Below, one piece after another: positions 18,198-23,837 of a stretch of 64,000 nt of DNA. A model generated the notes under the pieces. The model saw nothing but the letters and a program-made list of their open reading frames with translations, was not told where the DNA came from and searched no databases. The DNA comes from Geothrix oryzae (lineage in GTDB: Bacteria; Acidobacteriota; Holophagae; Holophagales; Holophagaceae): positions 1,984,001 to 2,048,000 of the forward strand of contig NZ_AP027079.1 of assembly GCF_030295385.1 (NCBI RefSeq), written 5' to 3'. The translations under genes were made by a program, and so were the position numbers. Each line of letters opens with the position of its first letter. Position 1 is the first letter of the stretch.

Positions 18198-18229
18198 ACC
18201 ACCAAGACACGAAGACACCAAGAAAAGCT
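18198..18229. repeat. Left copy of ACCACCAAGACAC intergenic repeat
   Basis: ACCACCAAGACAC (18198-18210) and CAAGAAAAGCT (18219-18229) lie just after guaB. Both recur in reverse complement at 18960-18984, on the far side of the HNH gene. The order of the two blocks is permuted, so these are two inverted copies of a repetitive unit rather than ends of one simple inverted repeat. Confidence 0.75.
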
Positions 18230-18255: not shown

Positions 18256-18942
18256 ATGAAGCCAGGGGATATCGTCTCCTACCTGGAGATGTGCCAAGAA
18301 GAAGGGGCGAGCCTTCAGCGAGGCATGAACTTCCAGCTTCGCCCTGGTCATTCCGTAGTACTCATGAGCCTGCGCGCAGGAGCCCCGTACGACGACTCTC
18401 TCCTTGAATCTGGTCGAGTGCTCATCTACGAGGGGCATGACGTTTTGAATTTGGCCGCAGGCCCAGATCCCAAACTCGTCGACCAGCCGCTTGAGACCCC
18501 TGCTGGAAAACCCACTGAGAACGGAAAATTCTGGGCCGCTGCAAAAGTGCGTGAACAAGGTGGAAATGCTGAGCGGGTGAGAGTCTACGAAAAAATCAAG
18601 GCTGGAATTTGGGCCTATAACGGCACCTTTCACCTTCTTTCAGCCTGGATGGAACCATCCAAGAGCCGCAAAGTTGTGAAGTTTCGTATGGAGCTGTCCG
18701 ACGATGAGGACAATCCAGTTGCGCACCATGGACCCCTCAAACATCAAAGAATGATCCCCAGCCAGGTCAAACAAGCCGTTTGGAAGCGAGATCAAGGCAA
18801 GTGTGTCCTCTGCGGAGATCAAAAAAACCTTCACTTCGACCACGAAATTCCCTTTTCCAAAGGGGGGTCCTCGCTGGTGGCAGAGAATGTTCGTCTGCTT
18901 TGTGCCAAGCACAATTTAGCCAAGAGCGACAAAATCGAGTGA
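18256..18942 (+). CDS. SRA-like/HNH endonuclease (candidate modification-dependent restriction enzyme)
   Basis: 228 residues in two parts. The N-terminal 140 residues (RGMNFQLRPGHSVVLMSL, RVLIYEGHDVLN, RVYEKIKAGIWAYNG) resemble an SRA/YDG-type modified-base reader. Residues about 178-222 form an HNH nuclease with CVLCG, then FDHEIPFSKGG, then ENVRLLCAKHN, supplying two Cys pairs and the catalytic His. Such fusions are candidates for type IV cleavage of modified DNA. The gene is visibly lower in GC than guaB and pyrC and sits between two copies of an intergenic repeat, suggesting insertion. The HNH part is clear; the SRA assignment is an inference from pattern. Confidence 0.8.
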   Translation: MKPGDIVSYLEMCQEEGASLQRGMNFQLRPGHSVVLMSLRAGAPYDDSLLESGRVLIYEGHDVLNLAAGPDPKLVDQPLETPAGKPTENGKFWAAAKVREQGGNAERVRVYEKIKAGIWAYNGTFHLLSAWMEPSKSRKVVKFRMELSDDEDNPVAHHGPLKHQRMIPSQVKQAVWKRDQGKCVLCGDQKNLHFDHEIPFSKGGSSLVAENVRLLCAKHNLAKSDKIE

Positions 18943-18959
18943 GTCCTTTGCTGTTTTTG

Positions 18960-18984
18960 GTGTCTTGGTGGTTAGCTTTTCTTG
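18960..18984. repeat. Right copy of ACCACCAAGACAC intergenic repeat
   Basis: GTGTCTTGGTGGT (18960-18972) and AGCTTTTCTTG (18974-18984) are exact reverse complements of the two blocks at 18198-18229. The copy lies between the HNH gene and pyrC. Confidence 0.75.
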
Positions 18985-19010: not shown

Positions 19011-20303
19011 ATGTCCCTCCTCGTGAAGAATGTCCGCCTGGTCGATCCTGCGCAGAACCTGGACGGGCCCGGCCTGCTGCTGGTGGTGGACGGGAAGGTG
19101 GAAGCCATCGCCACGGACGCGGCGGCCCTGCCGAAGCACGAAGGCGTGGAGGTGGTCGACGGCGGCGGCGCGGTGCTGACGCCGGGCTTCGTGGATCTCC
19201 ATGTGCACTTCCGCGAGCCGGGGCAGACCCGCAAGGAGAGCATCGAGAGCGGCAGCCGGGCCGCGGTGGCGGGCGGCTTCACCGCCGTGTGCGCCATGGC
19301 CAACACCAAGCCCGTGAACGACAGCGTGGCCATCACGGAGATGATGCTCACCCGCGCCGCGAAGGCCGGTCTCTGCCGCTACTTCCCCATCGGTACCGTC
19401 AGCCGCGAGATGAAGGGCGAAGAGCTGGCCGACATGGGCACGCTGAAGGCCGCCGGCTGCGTGGCCTTCTCCGATGACGGCCTGCCCATCTCCAGCGCCT
19501 CGCTCATGCGTCGCGCCCTGGAATACACGCGCTGGCTCGAGGTGCCCGTGGTGGCGCACGAGGAGGATCGCGACCTCGCCGGCAAGGGCTACATGCACGA
19601 AGGCGCCGTGAGCGCATCGCTGGGCTGCCTGGGCATCCCCGCCGCCGCCGAAGAGGCCATGGTGGCCCGAGACATCGTGCTGGCCGAGCACACCGGCGGC
19701 CACCTGCACCTGGCCCACCTCAGCACGAAGGGCTCCATGAGGATGGTGCGCGAAGCCAAGGCCCGGGGACTGAAGGTCACCTGTGAGGTGACGCCCCACC
19801 ACTTCGCCCTGTCGGACAAGGAGCTGATGAAGTTCGACAGCGACTACAAAATGAACCCGCCCCTGCGCACCGAGGCCGACATCCAGGCCGTGCTGGAGGC
19901 CCTGGCCGACGGCACCGTGGACGCCATCGCCACGGACCACGCCCCCCACGGCTGGGACGACAAGGAAGTGGAGCTGCCCATCGCCGCCTTCGGCGTCATC
20001 GGCCTGGAGACCGCCCTGCCCCTCACGCTCGAGCTGCTGGTGAACAAGAAGGTCATCAGCCTGGCCAAGGCCATCAGCCTGCTCACCTGGGAGCCCGCCA
20101 AGGTCTTCCATCTCGACCAGCAGGGCCTCGGCACCTTGAAGCCCGGCGCCCCCGCGGACTTCGTCCTCTTCGACCCCAACGCCCAGGTCCAGGTAGACCG
20201 CGCCTTCATCCAGTCCAAGTCCTTCAACACCCCCTTCAAAGGCTGGAGCCTCCCCGGAAAGATCCTGGGCACCTGGGTGGGCGGCAAGCGAGTCTGGGGC
20301 TAA
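19011..20303 (+). CDS. pyrC: Dihydroorotase (class I)
   Basis: Cyclises N-carbamoyl-aspartate to dihydroorotate in de novo pyrimidine synthesis. The 430 residues match class I enzymes. The zinc site DLHVHFREPG has His64, His66 and Arg68; the substrate-binding Asn lies in AMANTKPVND; further metal His residues are in VPVVAHEED and HLHLAHLST; and the catalytic Asp is in AIATDHAPH. Length and motifs are complete. It was probably adjacent to guaB before the HNH gene arrived. No pyrB is seen. The cassette array begins about 130 bp after its stop. Confidence 0.94.
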   Translation: MSLLVKNVRLVDPAQNLDGPGLLLVVDGKVEAIATDAAALPKHEGVEVVDGGGAVLTPGFVDLHVHFREPGQTRKESIESGSRAAVAGGFTAVCAMANTKPVNDSVAITEMMLTRAAKAGLCRYFPIGTVSREMKGEELADMGTLKAAGCVAFSDDGLPISSASLMRRALEYTRWLEVPVVAHEEDRDLAGKGYMHEGAVSASLGCLGIPAAAEEAMVARDIVLAEHTGGHLHLAHLSTKGSMRMVREAKARGLKVTCEVTPHHFALSDKELMKFDSDYKMNPPLRTEADIQAVLEALADGTVDAIATDHAPHGWDDKEVELPIAAFGVIGLETALPLTLELLVNKKVISLAKAISLLTWEPAKVFHLDQQGLGTLKPGAPADFVLFDPNAQVQVDRAFIQSKSFNTPFKGWSLPGKILGTWVGGKRVWG

Positions 20304-20433: not shown

Positions 20434-20440
20434 GTTAGGC
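20434..20440 (+). other. GTTRRRY recombination core at the start of the cassette array
   Basis: GTTAGGC is an exact match to the GTTRRRY core at which integron integrases join cassettes. It lies six bases before the first cassette start codon. Sequence to its left (20304-20433, AT-rich) shows no clear attC partner, so this could be a residual attI-like point or a degraded site. Confidence 0.5.
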
Positions 20441-21095: not shown

Positions 21096-21219
21096 GCCTA
21101 ACCCTCCGCTCAACTCGGACCCCGCCTGCATTTCCTTCCGCTCTTTCTCCTCTTACCACTTCCTTGGCTCCGTTCAGCGCCTCGACGCAGGCGTGACCGC
21201 TTAGCCTCTTCCGTTATAC
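21096..21219 (+). repeat. attC-like cassette recombination site A
   Basis: A 124-bp element runs from GCCTAAC (an exact RYYYAAC core, 21096-21102) to GTTATAC (one mismatch to GTTRRRY, 21213-21219). The inner arms GCCTGC (21125-21130 region) and GCAGGC (21188-21193) are complementary, flanked by further imperfectly paired blocks. It follows a stop codon directly and matches site B at 47 of its first 53 bases. Confidence 0.7.
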
Positions 21220-21282
21220 GCTCGCAATCTGCCATCTCAATTATCGTTGTTATTCTATTCAACTAATTACCGGAGAGATCAA

Positions 21283-21888
21283 ATGGCGAACCGGGTGATT
21301 GCCGTTATTCCAGCCTTGCTCATGGCTCTTGGGCTGCGAGGCCAAGAAGGCCCCTCGCGGGTTGGATTTGCGGTGGGATACGCATCTCCGCAGGAGCTGC
21401 ATGCCGCAGCCGGGATCGCTGCTGGATTGAATGTACATTTCAATCAAGGGACCCCCGGGGAAGGCCGCCTTCGTCTTGAGGGAGTGAGCTTTGGTGTGAA
21501 AACGAAGCGCACATCGATAACCACGCTTGAGAGTCAAGGAAGCGCCTGGAGCGTTGGTTACGACTGGATGCCTGGCAATAGGAATGTTCGTGGAATTCTC
21601 GGAATCGGGGGCATGCATTGGTCTCAGAGATTAGTACAACAGGACATCATCAATGGGGTACCGGGCTTCAGAGCCTATGGTGGGACTAAATCGGGATTCT
21701 CTATCGTGCCAACCCTGGGTGCGCAAGTTCGGATCAACCCATACCTCTCAGTTGAAGCTCGTTATGTGATTGCTGCCAATATTGGTAATAACGGTAAATA
21801 TTACTTTACCTATTCTGAAAACAATGAAATTCGTGAAATGAGATATTTTGTTCTCGGTGTGGAACTGCGTTTCCCAAAGCTGCGATGA
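21283..21888 (+). CDS. Secreted beta-rich protein, possibly a small outer-membrane barrel (second cassette)
   Basis: 201 residues: a signal peptide (NRVIAVIPALLMALGLRGQE) followed by alternating beta strands rich in Gly, Tyr and aromatic residues. Strands such as SAWSVGYDWMPG, GILGIGGMHWSQR, VPTLGAQVRINPYLSVEARYV and the terminal REMRYFVLGVELRF end on an aromatic/basic residue, as in small OmpA/OmpW-like barrels. The ATG at 21283 is preceded by GGAGAG, which decided the start. GC content is low. No family is recognised. Confidence 0.7.
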   Translation: MANRVIAVIPALLMALGLRGQEGPSRVGFAVGYASPQELHAAAGIAAGLNVHFNQGTPGEGRLRLEGVSFGVKTKRTSITTLESQGSAWSVGYDWMPGNRNVRGILGIGGMHWSQRLVQQDIINGVPGFRAYGGTKSGFSIVPTLGAQVRINPYLSVEARYVIAANIGNNGKYYFTYSENNEIREMRYFVLGVELRFPKLR

Positions 21889-21922
21889 GCTGCACGATGA
21901 CCTGCAGTGACGAATCGGCTCG

Positions 21923-22047
21923 GCCTGATCCTCCCCTCAAGTCGGACCCCGCCTGCATTGCCTTCCGATCTTTCTTGCCTTCTCGGTTCTCAGGTCCCGC
22001 TCAGCAGCCCGGTGCAGGCCACGCCAGTTAGCTTCCTTCCATCGGCG
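21923..22047 (+). repeat. attC-like cassette recombination site B
   Basis: A 125-bp element aligns end to end with site A. It begins GCCTGAT where A has GCCTAAC, shares the block TCGGACCCCGCCTGCATT exactly except one base, and has the GCTCAGC and GTGCAGGCC counterparts in the 3' half. The terminal core is degenerate (ATCGGCG in place of GTTATAC). It starts 35 bp after the second cassette's stop and ends 16 bp before the next ATG. Confidence 0.65.
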
Positions 22048-22062
22048 TTCCACAGAGGTTCC

Positions 22063-22488
22063 ATGCTTCCCTGGCTCTCATCTCCCATGCTGCTGGTTGC
22101 CTTGACGCAGCAGAGTGCGCAATTGCCCCCCATGGGCAACACCCCTCAGGAGCGCTCCTCGCAGGTGGTCCGGTTGGAGCAGGCCAAAGACTACAAAGGC
22201 CTTGCTGCTCACGCCCGAGCCTGGATCGACCAGCACCCCGATGACGCGGAGGCTTGGACCTCCCTTGGGGTCGCCCAGTTCAACCTTCACGAGGAAGCCG
22301 GAGCCCTTGAGAGCCTTTCCAAGGCCGTGACCCTCAAGCCCGATCTGAAGCGGGCCTGGTACATCCTCGGGCAGATCCATCACCAACGACACGACCAGCC
22401 TGCGACCATGAATTGCTATCACCAACTCCAGAAGCTCGATGCCGGGCTTGCCAGGCACTTCTATCGAAATGTCCTCGGTCGCTGGTAA
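22063..22488 (+). CDS. Small TPR protein (third cassette)
   Basis: 141 residues. The N-terminus MLPWLSSPMLLVALTQQSAQ looks like a signal peptide. About three tetratricopeptide repeats follow (YKGLAAHARAWIDQHPDDAE; AWTSLGVAQFNLHEEAGALES; AWYILGQIHHQRHDQPATM), and the protein ends in LGRW. TPRs mediate protein binding; no partner is evident. The ATG at 22063 follows AGAGG. The stop codon lies inside the next attC-like repeat, as is usual in cassettes. Confidence 0.75.
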   Translation: MLPWLSSPMLLVALTQQSAQLPPMGNTPQERSSQVVRLEQAKDYKGLAAHARAWIDQHPDDAEAWTSLGVAQFNLHEEAGALESLSKAVTLKPDLKRAWYILGQIHHQRHDQPATMNCYHQLQKLDAGLARHFYRNVLGRW

Positions 22489-22581
22489 CTTGCGCCGATC
22501 TTGCTCTTTCTCGATTTTCTGATTCTCGGCTCCGCTCAGCGCCTCGGCGCAGACGGGTCCAGTTCACTTCATCCGTCAGGT
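22482..22581 (+). repeat. attC-like cassette recombination site C
   Basis: A roughly 100-bp element begins at TGGTAAC, overlapping the TPR stop, and ends at GTCAGGT (22575-22581), one mismatch from GTTRRRY. TGCGCC (22491-22496) pairs with GGCGCA (22546-22551). Its 3' half, with TCCGCTCAGCGCCTCGGCGC, closely matches site A. The 5' half has diverged or shortened. Confidence 0.6.
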
Positions 22582-22598: not shown

Positions 22599-23096
22599 AT
22601 GGCCCTCGATCCCATGTCCAAGCAAGTTCTAGGCTTCTTTGGGTGGCTCGGTATCTGCTTCCTGGCCGCGGCACTTGGCGCACTCGCCTCCGTGCAAGCG
22701 GGGGCCTTCTATCAGTCCCTCGTTCGCCCCCATTGGGCACCGCCTGGCTGGCTGTTTGGCCCTGTCTGGACTGTTCTCTACATCCTCATGGCCATTTCAG
22801 CCTGGCTCGTATGGCGTGAGCACGGCTTTCGGAAAGCTGGTCTTGCGCTGTCTCTATTTCTTGTCCAATTAGCGGTGAACGCTTTATGGACTTGGTTGTT
22901 CTTTGTTTGGCGCCTGGGCAGCCTGGCCTTTGCCGAGATCCTCATGCTGTGGTTGCTGATCCTCGCCACGGCCTGGATGTTCGGGCGTCGAAGCCGTGTT
23001 GCCGGGGCTCTGCTTCTCCCTTATCTGGCCTGGGTATCGTTCGCCTCCGTCCTCACATGGGCCGTGTGGAGAAGCAATCTCCACACCCTCGGCTGA
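22599..23096 (+). CDS. tspO: TspO/MBR family membrane protein (fourth cassette)
   Basis: 165 residues with five predicted membrane helices and the TspO signature: the YQSLVRPHWAPPGWLFGPVW loop, then TVLYILMAISAWLVWR, then VNALWTWLFFVWRLGSLAFA. TspO proteins bind porphyrins and other small ligands and can act in stress or tetrapyrrole handling. The length fits (about 150-170). The start at 22599 lies 17 bp after the site C core. Its TGA overlaps the GGCTGAC opening of the next repeat. Confidence 0.9.
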   Translation: MALDPMSKQVLGFFGWLGICFLAAALGALASVQAGAFYQSLVRPHWAPPGWLFGPVWTVLYILMAISAWLVWREHGFRKAGLALSLFLVQLAVNALWTWLFFVWRLGSLAFAEILMLWLLILATAWMFGRRSRVAGALLLPYLAWVSFASVLTWAVWRSNLHTLG

Positions 23097-23120
23097 CCCT
23101 CCGCTCAGCCCGGCCCCACC
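23091..23120 (+). repeat. 5' half of an attC-like site
   Basis: GGCTGACCCTCCGCTCAGCC and the following CGGCCCC correspond to the opening of site A (GCCTAACCCTCCGCTCAACT). I could not find a convincing 3' half immediately downstream, so the site is truncated or strongly diverged. Confidence 0.45.
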
Positions 23121-23285: not shown

Positions 23286-23612
23286 GGCCGTTCTTTCCGA
23301 GCGTCGGCAATTCGAGACCGGGCTCCTTGTCCATCATGGGCTCGATTCCCGATGGCGCTCGGTATTTCGCCTGGAAGGGTTTGCCCTCTGGTTGGTGAAG
23401 TCAGCGCCGGTGCGCCGCGCGGCGCATCGCCCTCCGCACGAGTCCCCCCAACCATCCCATCCATGGCATCCGCGTCCGGTACGAAAGGCCCGGTCAACCG
23501 CATCCTCATGTGCCTTGGCGGAAGATCCGGGCCGTAAAGGCTTTCGTTCATTGGTGAAGCTGCGCGAAATGCCTATGTTATGCATCGGCGAAAGCCACAC
23601 GAGGAGGGCGAT
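23286..23612. other. 327-bp region without a convincing gene, ending in a GTTRRRY-like core
   Basis: No frame here looks protein-like on either strand. GGCCCGG (23487-23493) pairs with CCGGGCC (23527-23533). GTTATGC at 23577-23583 is one mismatch from GTTRRRY and stands 30 bp before the DUF2188 start. This stretch may be the remnant of the fourth cassette's attC and a promoter for the small reverse gene. Confidence 0.5.
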
Positions 23613-23837
23613 ATGAAAAACTATCACCTCGCCAAGGAAGGAAACGCCTGGGCCCTCAAGCCTGAAGGCGGCCGTCGGCCCGTGGTCCACGCGGCGACCA
23701 AGGCGGAAGCCATCGGGCAGACGCGGGTCTACATGCAGCAGCATGCGGGCTCGGTGAAGATCCACAAGGAGGATGGCCAGATCCAGGAGGAACGGACCTA
23801 TCCGAGGTCCATGGATCCCCGGCGCATCAAGAGCTGA
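23613..23837 (+). CDS. DUF2188 domain protein
   Basis: 74 residues carrying the DUF2188 pattern: MKNYHLAKEGNAWALKPEGG, then ATKAEAIGQTRVYMQ, then VKIHKEDGQIQEERTYPR. This small alpha/beta domain is widespread in bacteria and of unknown function. The ATG at 23613 is chosen because GAGGAGG lies just upstream; an earlier ATG at 23580 falls in the GTTATGC core. It is probably the last cassette, since normal chromosomal composition resumes after it. Confidence 0.8.
   Translation: MKNYHLAKEGNAWALKPEGGRRPVVHAATKAEAIGQTRVYMQQHAGSVKIHKEDGQIQEERTYPRSMDPRRIKS

Follow-up and report, generated by a model that had tools for sequence, protein, structure and literature searches.

The usual picture of an integron comprises a single integrase with a single attI site and a single array beside it. 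The recombination site of the cassettes, attC, folds as a single strand, and IntI recombines the folded bottom strand. The Vibrio superintegron with its VCRs is a sedentary chromosomal integron. In Xanthomonas, CALINs occupy conserved loci distant from intI (PMC12444791). Three ways in which CALINs may arise have been put forward (PMC8618304). Partial copies of attI carried on cassettes are known from mobile integrons (PMC12901181). For the Acidobacteria, the attC-taxa covariance models describe conserved chromosomal attC sites that are specific to the phylum (PMC9176274).

The cluster described here lies in a Geothrix genome made of one contig (3,265,981 bp). The window, i.e. the whole stretch of 64,000 nucleotides that was analysed, corresponds to positions 1,984,001–2,048,000. 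Like a CALIN, the cluster has cassettes and attC sites, two of them full and two partial, and no integrase nearby; unlike a typical one, its sites are decayed and no attI was detected here, though other clusters of the host carry one. The genome as a whole resembles the Vibrio superintegron in having one intI, an attI, a long homogeneous array of 124-bp attC sites and a decay of these sites away from attI, but it differs in that a further array of the same length, headed by an attI of its own, is located 965 kb from the only intI, and in having smaller outposts. Cassettes located away from the primary attI also recall attG insertion and delta-attI cassettes. Unlike the latter, the orphan sites of Geothrix retain more of attI, with an upstream TAGGCGAAC-type element, and stand at the start of arrays. 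A further comparison is with the Acidobacteria-type attC sites, chromosomal like those of Geothrix.

The window cluster itself is an ordinary CALIN, and one integrase with several attI-headed arrays is apparently new. No relevant report of the latter was found in titles and abstracts, within a partial coverage of the literature. Under the same partial coverage, no paper on a Geothrix integron was found, the sole co-mention of integron and Geothrix being a sewage survey. Taken together as one reading, it is held with high confidence that two palindromic spacers of the window, A and B, are attC sites of a CALIN with four cassettes, flanked by pyrC and a DUF2188 gene, that the cassettes would have been placed there long ago in trans or be the relict of a broken array, and that the feeding system, with one integrase and several attI-headed arrays, is seemingly unusual.

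Characterization of sites A and B

Both spacers were recovered where the initial annotation had placed them (Table 1), 827 bp apart. The identity it had given for their first 53 bases (47/53) is exact and the complementary inner arms GCCTGC/GCAGGC are present. Its term 'near-identical' applies to the 5′ half but not to the full length, over which 86 of 124 bases are identical (69%). The block TCGGACCCCGCCTGCATT has two copies in the window at 0 mismatches (expected from shuffles with up to three mismatches: 0.18). The genome-wide search for this block, which had been proposed as a check, gave 67 matches with up to three mismatches, nearly all in tandem on the same strand and with cassette-like genes. 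They cluster at 557–581 kb and 1530–1547 kb, with a few small clusters in addition.

Forty-eight copies taken from the two large clusters, and none from the window, were aligned and used to build a covariance model (R1). Mean column identity over these 48 sites was 90%, a homogeneity of the VCR type, as had been supposed. The anatomy of the sites is that of an attC: R″ GCCTAAC and R′ GTTAGGC, L″ and L′ arms that pair with each other, an unpaired central spacer, three bulged, extrahelical bases and a long inner stem. Stem pairing was observed in 93.9% of cells (48 sites, bulges at columns 16, 20 and 24) versus 20–49% for slid versions, and a compensatory C-G/G-C switch was found at pair 19-106 in 10 of the 48 sites. 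The model gave 81 matches in the genome, 70 of them within two same-strand arrays, and matches were obtained in 40 of the 41 Geothrix genomes sampled. Outside the clusters, two weak attC-like matches of 41 bits each stand alone, at G000:C1:915871-915984 and 2321772-2321892 (G000 is the host genome).

With this model, site A scored 108.2 bits (E 2.8e-25) and site B 69.5 bits (E 2e-15). Sites of the arrays carry the boxes RYYYAAC and GTTRRRY with the G^TT core. Site A largely does (R′ is GTTATAC), and its cut is expected after position 21213. In site B, whose terminal core had been rightly described as degenerate, R′ reads CATCGGC instead of GTTRRRY and R″ reads GCCTGAT instead of GCCTAAC, the AAC being gone. 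Site B is probably a decayed, inactive attC copy, and the cassette that it bounds is probably frozen in place because the G^TT core is lost. Site A may still be excisable, while B and the later sites would not be. The single-strand folding energy of A and B was no better than that of shuffled sequences (z −0.37 and +1.19, respectively) and is uninformative; support for the two sites comes from homology and covariation. A search against Rfam gave no match.

Integrase, attI sites and arrays of the host genome

The host genome contains a chromosomal integron with an integrase gene of the intI family, an attI site and an array. A single intact integron integrase gene was found (336 aa, 581.5–582.5 kb). 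Its product matches TIGR02249 with an E value of 7e-140 (465.8 bits for a cut-off of 265) and can be aligned almost completely with 2a3v, an integron integrase of solved structure, the LRHSFATH...YTH region included. Its closest relatives are found in Geothrix and other Holophagaceae (Acidobacteriota), and the assignment to the genus is based on them. The main array consists of 35 attC sites and is divergent from intI, with attI at 581.29 kb. Among the sampled genomes, G012, G013 and G020 have two integron integrase genes each.

The second array, also of 35 attC sites, is located at 1528–1547 kb, without integrase and 965 kb from intI. Median cassette length is 569 and 513 bp in the two arrays, and open frames in the cassettes of both are longer on the sense than on the antisense strand. 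The attI core CACCGTCCAATT(C/T)AAAG^TTAGGC is common to the intI-linked array and the start of the second array, which is thus headed by an attI copy in a genome where no other integron integrase was detected. The same core, with three mismatches at its 5′ end, heads a cluster at 2640 kb. With an attI profile made without the host genome (nhmmer), matches were obtained at 1546.87 kb (E 8.7e-21), 2640.1 kb (E 2.5e-9) and, more weakly, 3245 kb (E 4e-4). Smaller attC clusters are present elsewhere in the host genome, some with an attI copy.

When the core pattern was searched with up to three mismatches, 29 matches were found in 16 of the 41 genomes (reversed control: 0). Twelve adjoin intI and 17 had no intI inside the 1.5 kb examined. 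Judged by flank similarity, the orphan attI sites occupy eleven distinct chromosomal neighbourhoods. One detected intI together with at least one orphan attI was found in 11 of 41 genomes (G000, G001, G002, G006, G008, G009, G015, G017, G018, G026 and G037). For several of them the assembly is a draft, in which a second intI may have escaped detection, but the host is a single contig.

The cassette cluster at the pyrC locus

Four cassettes, encoding a DUF2971 protein, a 201-aa protein, a TPR protein and a TspO protein, are located between pyrC and the DUF2188 gene (Table 1). Three matches to the covariance model were found in the window and the sole intI is 1.42 Mb away. With at least two attC sites, and since no integrase is nearby, the cluster falls into the CALINs; from its sequence, it is an old, eroding one in the Geothrix chromosome. 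Remnant C, which is 77% identical to site A over 52 nt, half-site D and the left-boundary core were absent from the initial annotation, to which the host, the distant integrase, the second large array and the orphan attI sites were not visible either. A truncated attC-like sequence was also read by eye after the TspO gene in G002 and G033. The G+C content is 48.6% in cassette 1 and 52.4% in cassette 2 versus 69.2% in the window. By eye, the product of cassette 2 looks like an exported outer-membrane beta-barrel. Just upstream of pyrC, a gene with weak HNH endonuclease and SRA-like matches (18256–18939) is flanked by imperfect inverted repeats (18208–18228 and 18950–18970).

Table 1. Features of the cassette cluster and its flanks (positions in the window)
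Feature	Position	Strand	Remarks
Dihydroorotase gene (pyrC), flank	19011..20303	+	Present in 38/41 sampled Geothrix genomes
Left-boundary R′-type core	20434..20440	+	GTTAGGC; start of first cassette
Cassette 1 gene, DUF2971, 209 aa	20447..21076	+	Pfam PF11185, E 1.6e-5
attC site A	21096..21219	+	R″ GCCTAAC, R′ GTTATAC; G^TT core kept; 21/27 stem pairs form
Cassette 2 gene, 201 aa	21283..21888	+	No family match
attC site B	21923..22046	+	R″ GCCTGAT, R′ CATCGGC; G^TT core lost; 18/27 pairs form
Cassette 3 gene, TPR-repeat protein, 141 aa	22063..22488	+	Pfam TPR, E 4e-8
attC remnant C	22472..22581	+	5′ half eroded, 3′ half clear from about 22510; 31.9 bits, E 8.1e-6 (covariance model R1)
Cassette 4 gene, TspO/MBR family, 165 aa	22599..23096	+	PF03073, E 3e-44
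attC half-site D (5′ half, fourth attC)	23092..23118	+	84% over 25 nt to site A; overlaps TspO stop codon
DUF2188 gene, flank	23592..23837	+	Adjoins pyrC in cassette-free relatives (G040, G026)

The pyrC locus was compared among relatives. It has no cassettes in G040 and G026, a TspO gene with attC remnants in G033 (same species as the host) and G002, and in G015 different genes accompanied by a degenerate attC. By its sequence context in relatives, the TspO gene is a true cassette, because related genes sit between intact attC sites in G026, G006 and G008. For cassette 1, no relative was found in an attC context; a homologue in G031 (40% identity) has no attC nearby. The window cassettes had no match in the two large arrays beyond attC itself. 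No base-exact empty site was found at the pyrC locus among the relatives, and the G040 and G026 junctions do not align base by base with the host boundary. With nhmmer attI profiles, no match was found upstream of the first cassette, where an orphan attI was looked for, and the pyrC loci of 20 relatives gave chance-level signals only (E above 1). That neither an attI at the left boundary nor an exact empty site was recognised counts against the reading as far as the route of insertion at the pyrC locus is concerned. The sequence GTCTAATCCCTGTTAGGC at the cluster boundary, slightly attI-like by eye, was considered as an attI relic and discarded, the attI profiles giving it no support.

Origin of the cluster

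It is extremely improbable that A and B represent dispersed palindromic repeats, of REP type or other, without integron function. They are palindromic, multicopy and intergenic, and their folding as single-stranded DNA is not exceptional, as such a repeat would have it. Against this, the copies are almost all arranged in tandem on one strand, in clusters with intervening genes, and have the specific anatomy of attC, and an integrase gene and an attI adjoin the main array. A block spread widely over places without cassette-like genes, the picture that the initial annotation had set against its own proposal, was not what the genome contained. The REP-type reading was thus rejected. As attC cassettes, those of the pyrC locus would have been inserted in the distant past by the integron integrase, working in trans, through recombination of attC with attI or with a genomic site; alternatively, they would have been left by an array since broken up.

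For such placement, insertion at a non-attI genomic site next to pyrC (attG-like, off-target activity of IntI) is a tentative candidate, with a little less than an even chance. Such insertion figures among the routes proposed for CALINs (PMC8618304), a GTTAGGC core is present at the left boundary and cassette-free relatives exist (G040 and G026). Their junctions, however, cannot be aligned base by base with the host boundary, so the exact insertion point is not visible, and cassettes occur at the pyrC locus in several species, which makes a recent single event unlikely. It is possible, but rather doubtful, that an attI copy formerly stood at the head of the cluster, which would now be a satellite array, in the course of dying, of a multi-attI integron. 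Orphan attI copies do head other host clusters (1546.87, 2640.1 and 3245 kb), the window attC sites are decayed and the cassettes at the pyrC locus differ between relatives, but the attI signal is absent at the boundary of the window cluster and at chance level in the pyrC loci of the 20 relatives. Splitting of the cluster from a large array by chromosomal rearrangement or duplication, also a proposed route (PMC8618304), appears unlikely. It would fit attC sites all belonging to one family; on the other hand, the window cassettes match neither large array outside attC, and pyrC and the DUF2188 gene are adjacent in cassette-free relatives, so that a breakpoint is not evident.

Possible growth of the second array and presumed action in trans

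The quality of attC sites drops with distance from attI in both arrays (Spearman −0.51, p 0.0016, and −0.53, p 0.001), and two cassette stretches are common to both at 95–97%. In G033, the second locus has the same upstream and distal flanks as in the host and a related oldest cassette, and no match to the cassettes near its attI was found in the host arrays. In G002, the same upstream flank is followed by a long array of largely different cassettes. Conserved flanks with differing attI-proximal cassettes are the trace that growth at an orphan attI would leave. We infer that the distant integrase drives growth at the second array. A single integrase appears to serve, presumably in trans, several attI copies on the chromosome, every one of them at the head of an array.

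A multi-site integron is fairly probable: one integrase would insert cassettes in trans at several chromosomal attI sites, giving rise to parallel arrays that would each grow and age on their own, the window cluster would be a satellite that has become extinct, and attI might spread inside arrays. A single integrase serving several attI-headed arrays would be a natural explanation for some CALINs. The Geothrix system makes it possible to test the reach of an integrase in trans and the birth, growth and death of orphan arrays, the dying end of which would be displayed by the window cluster.

One attI copy of G033 (G033:C31:309287) is located within an array, where attC sites flank it, and another attI is found 5 kb upstream. 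The position of the first between attC sites suggests that attI copies can travel within arrays. A cassette with a short attC (about 66 nt), in which no long gene is evident by eye, matches one place in the second array of the host and about nine places in two arrays of G002, at 73–79% identity.
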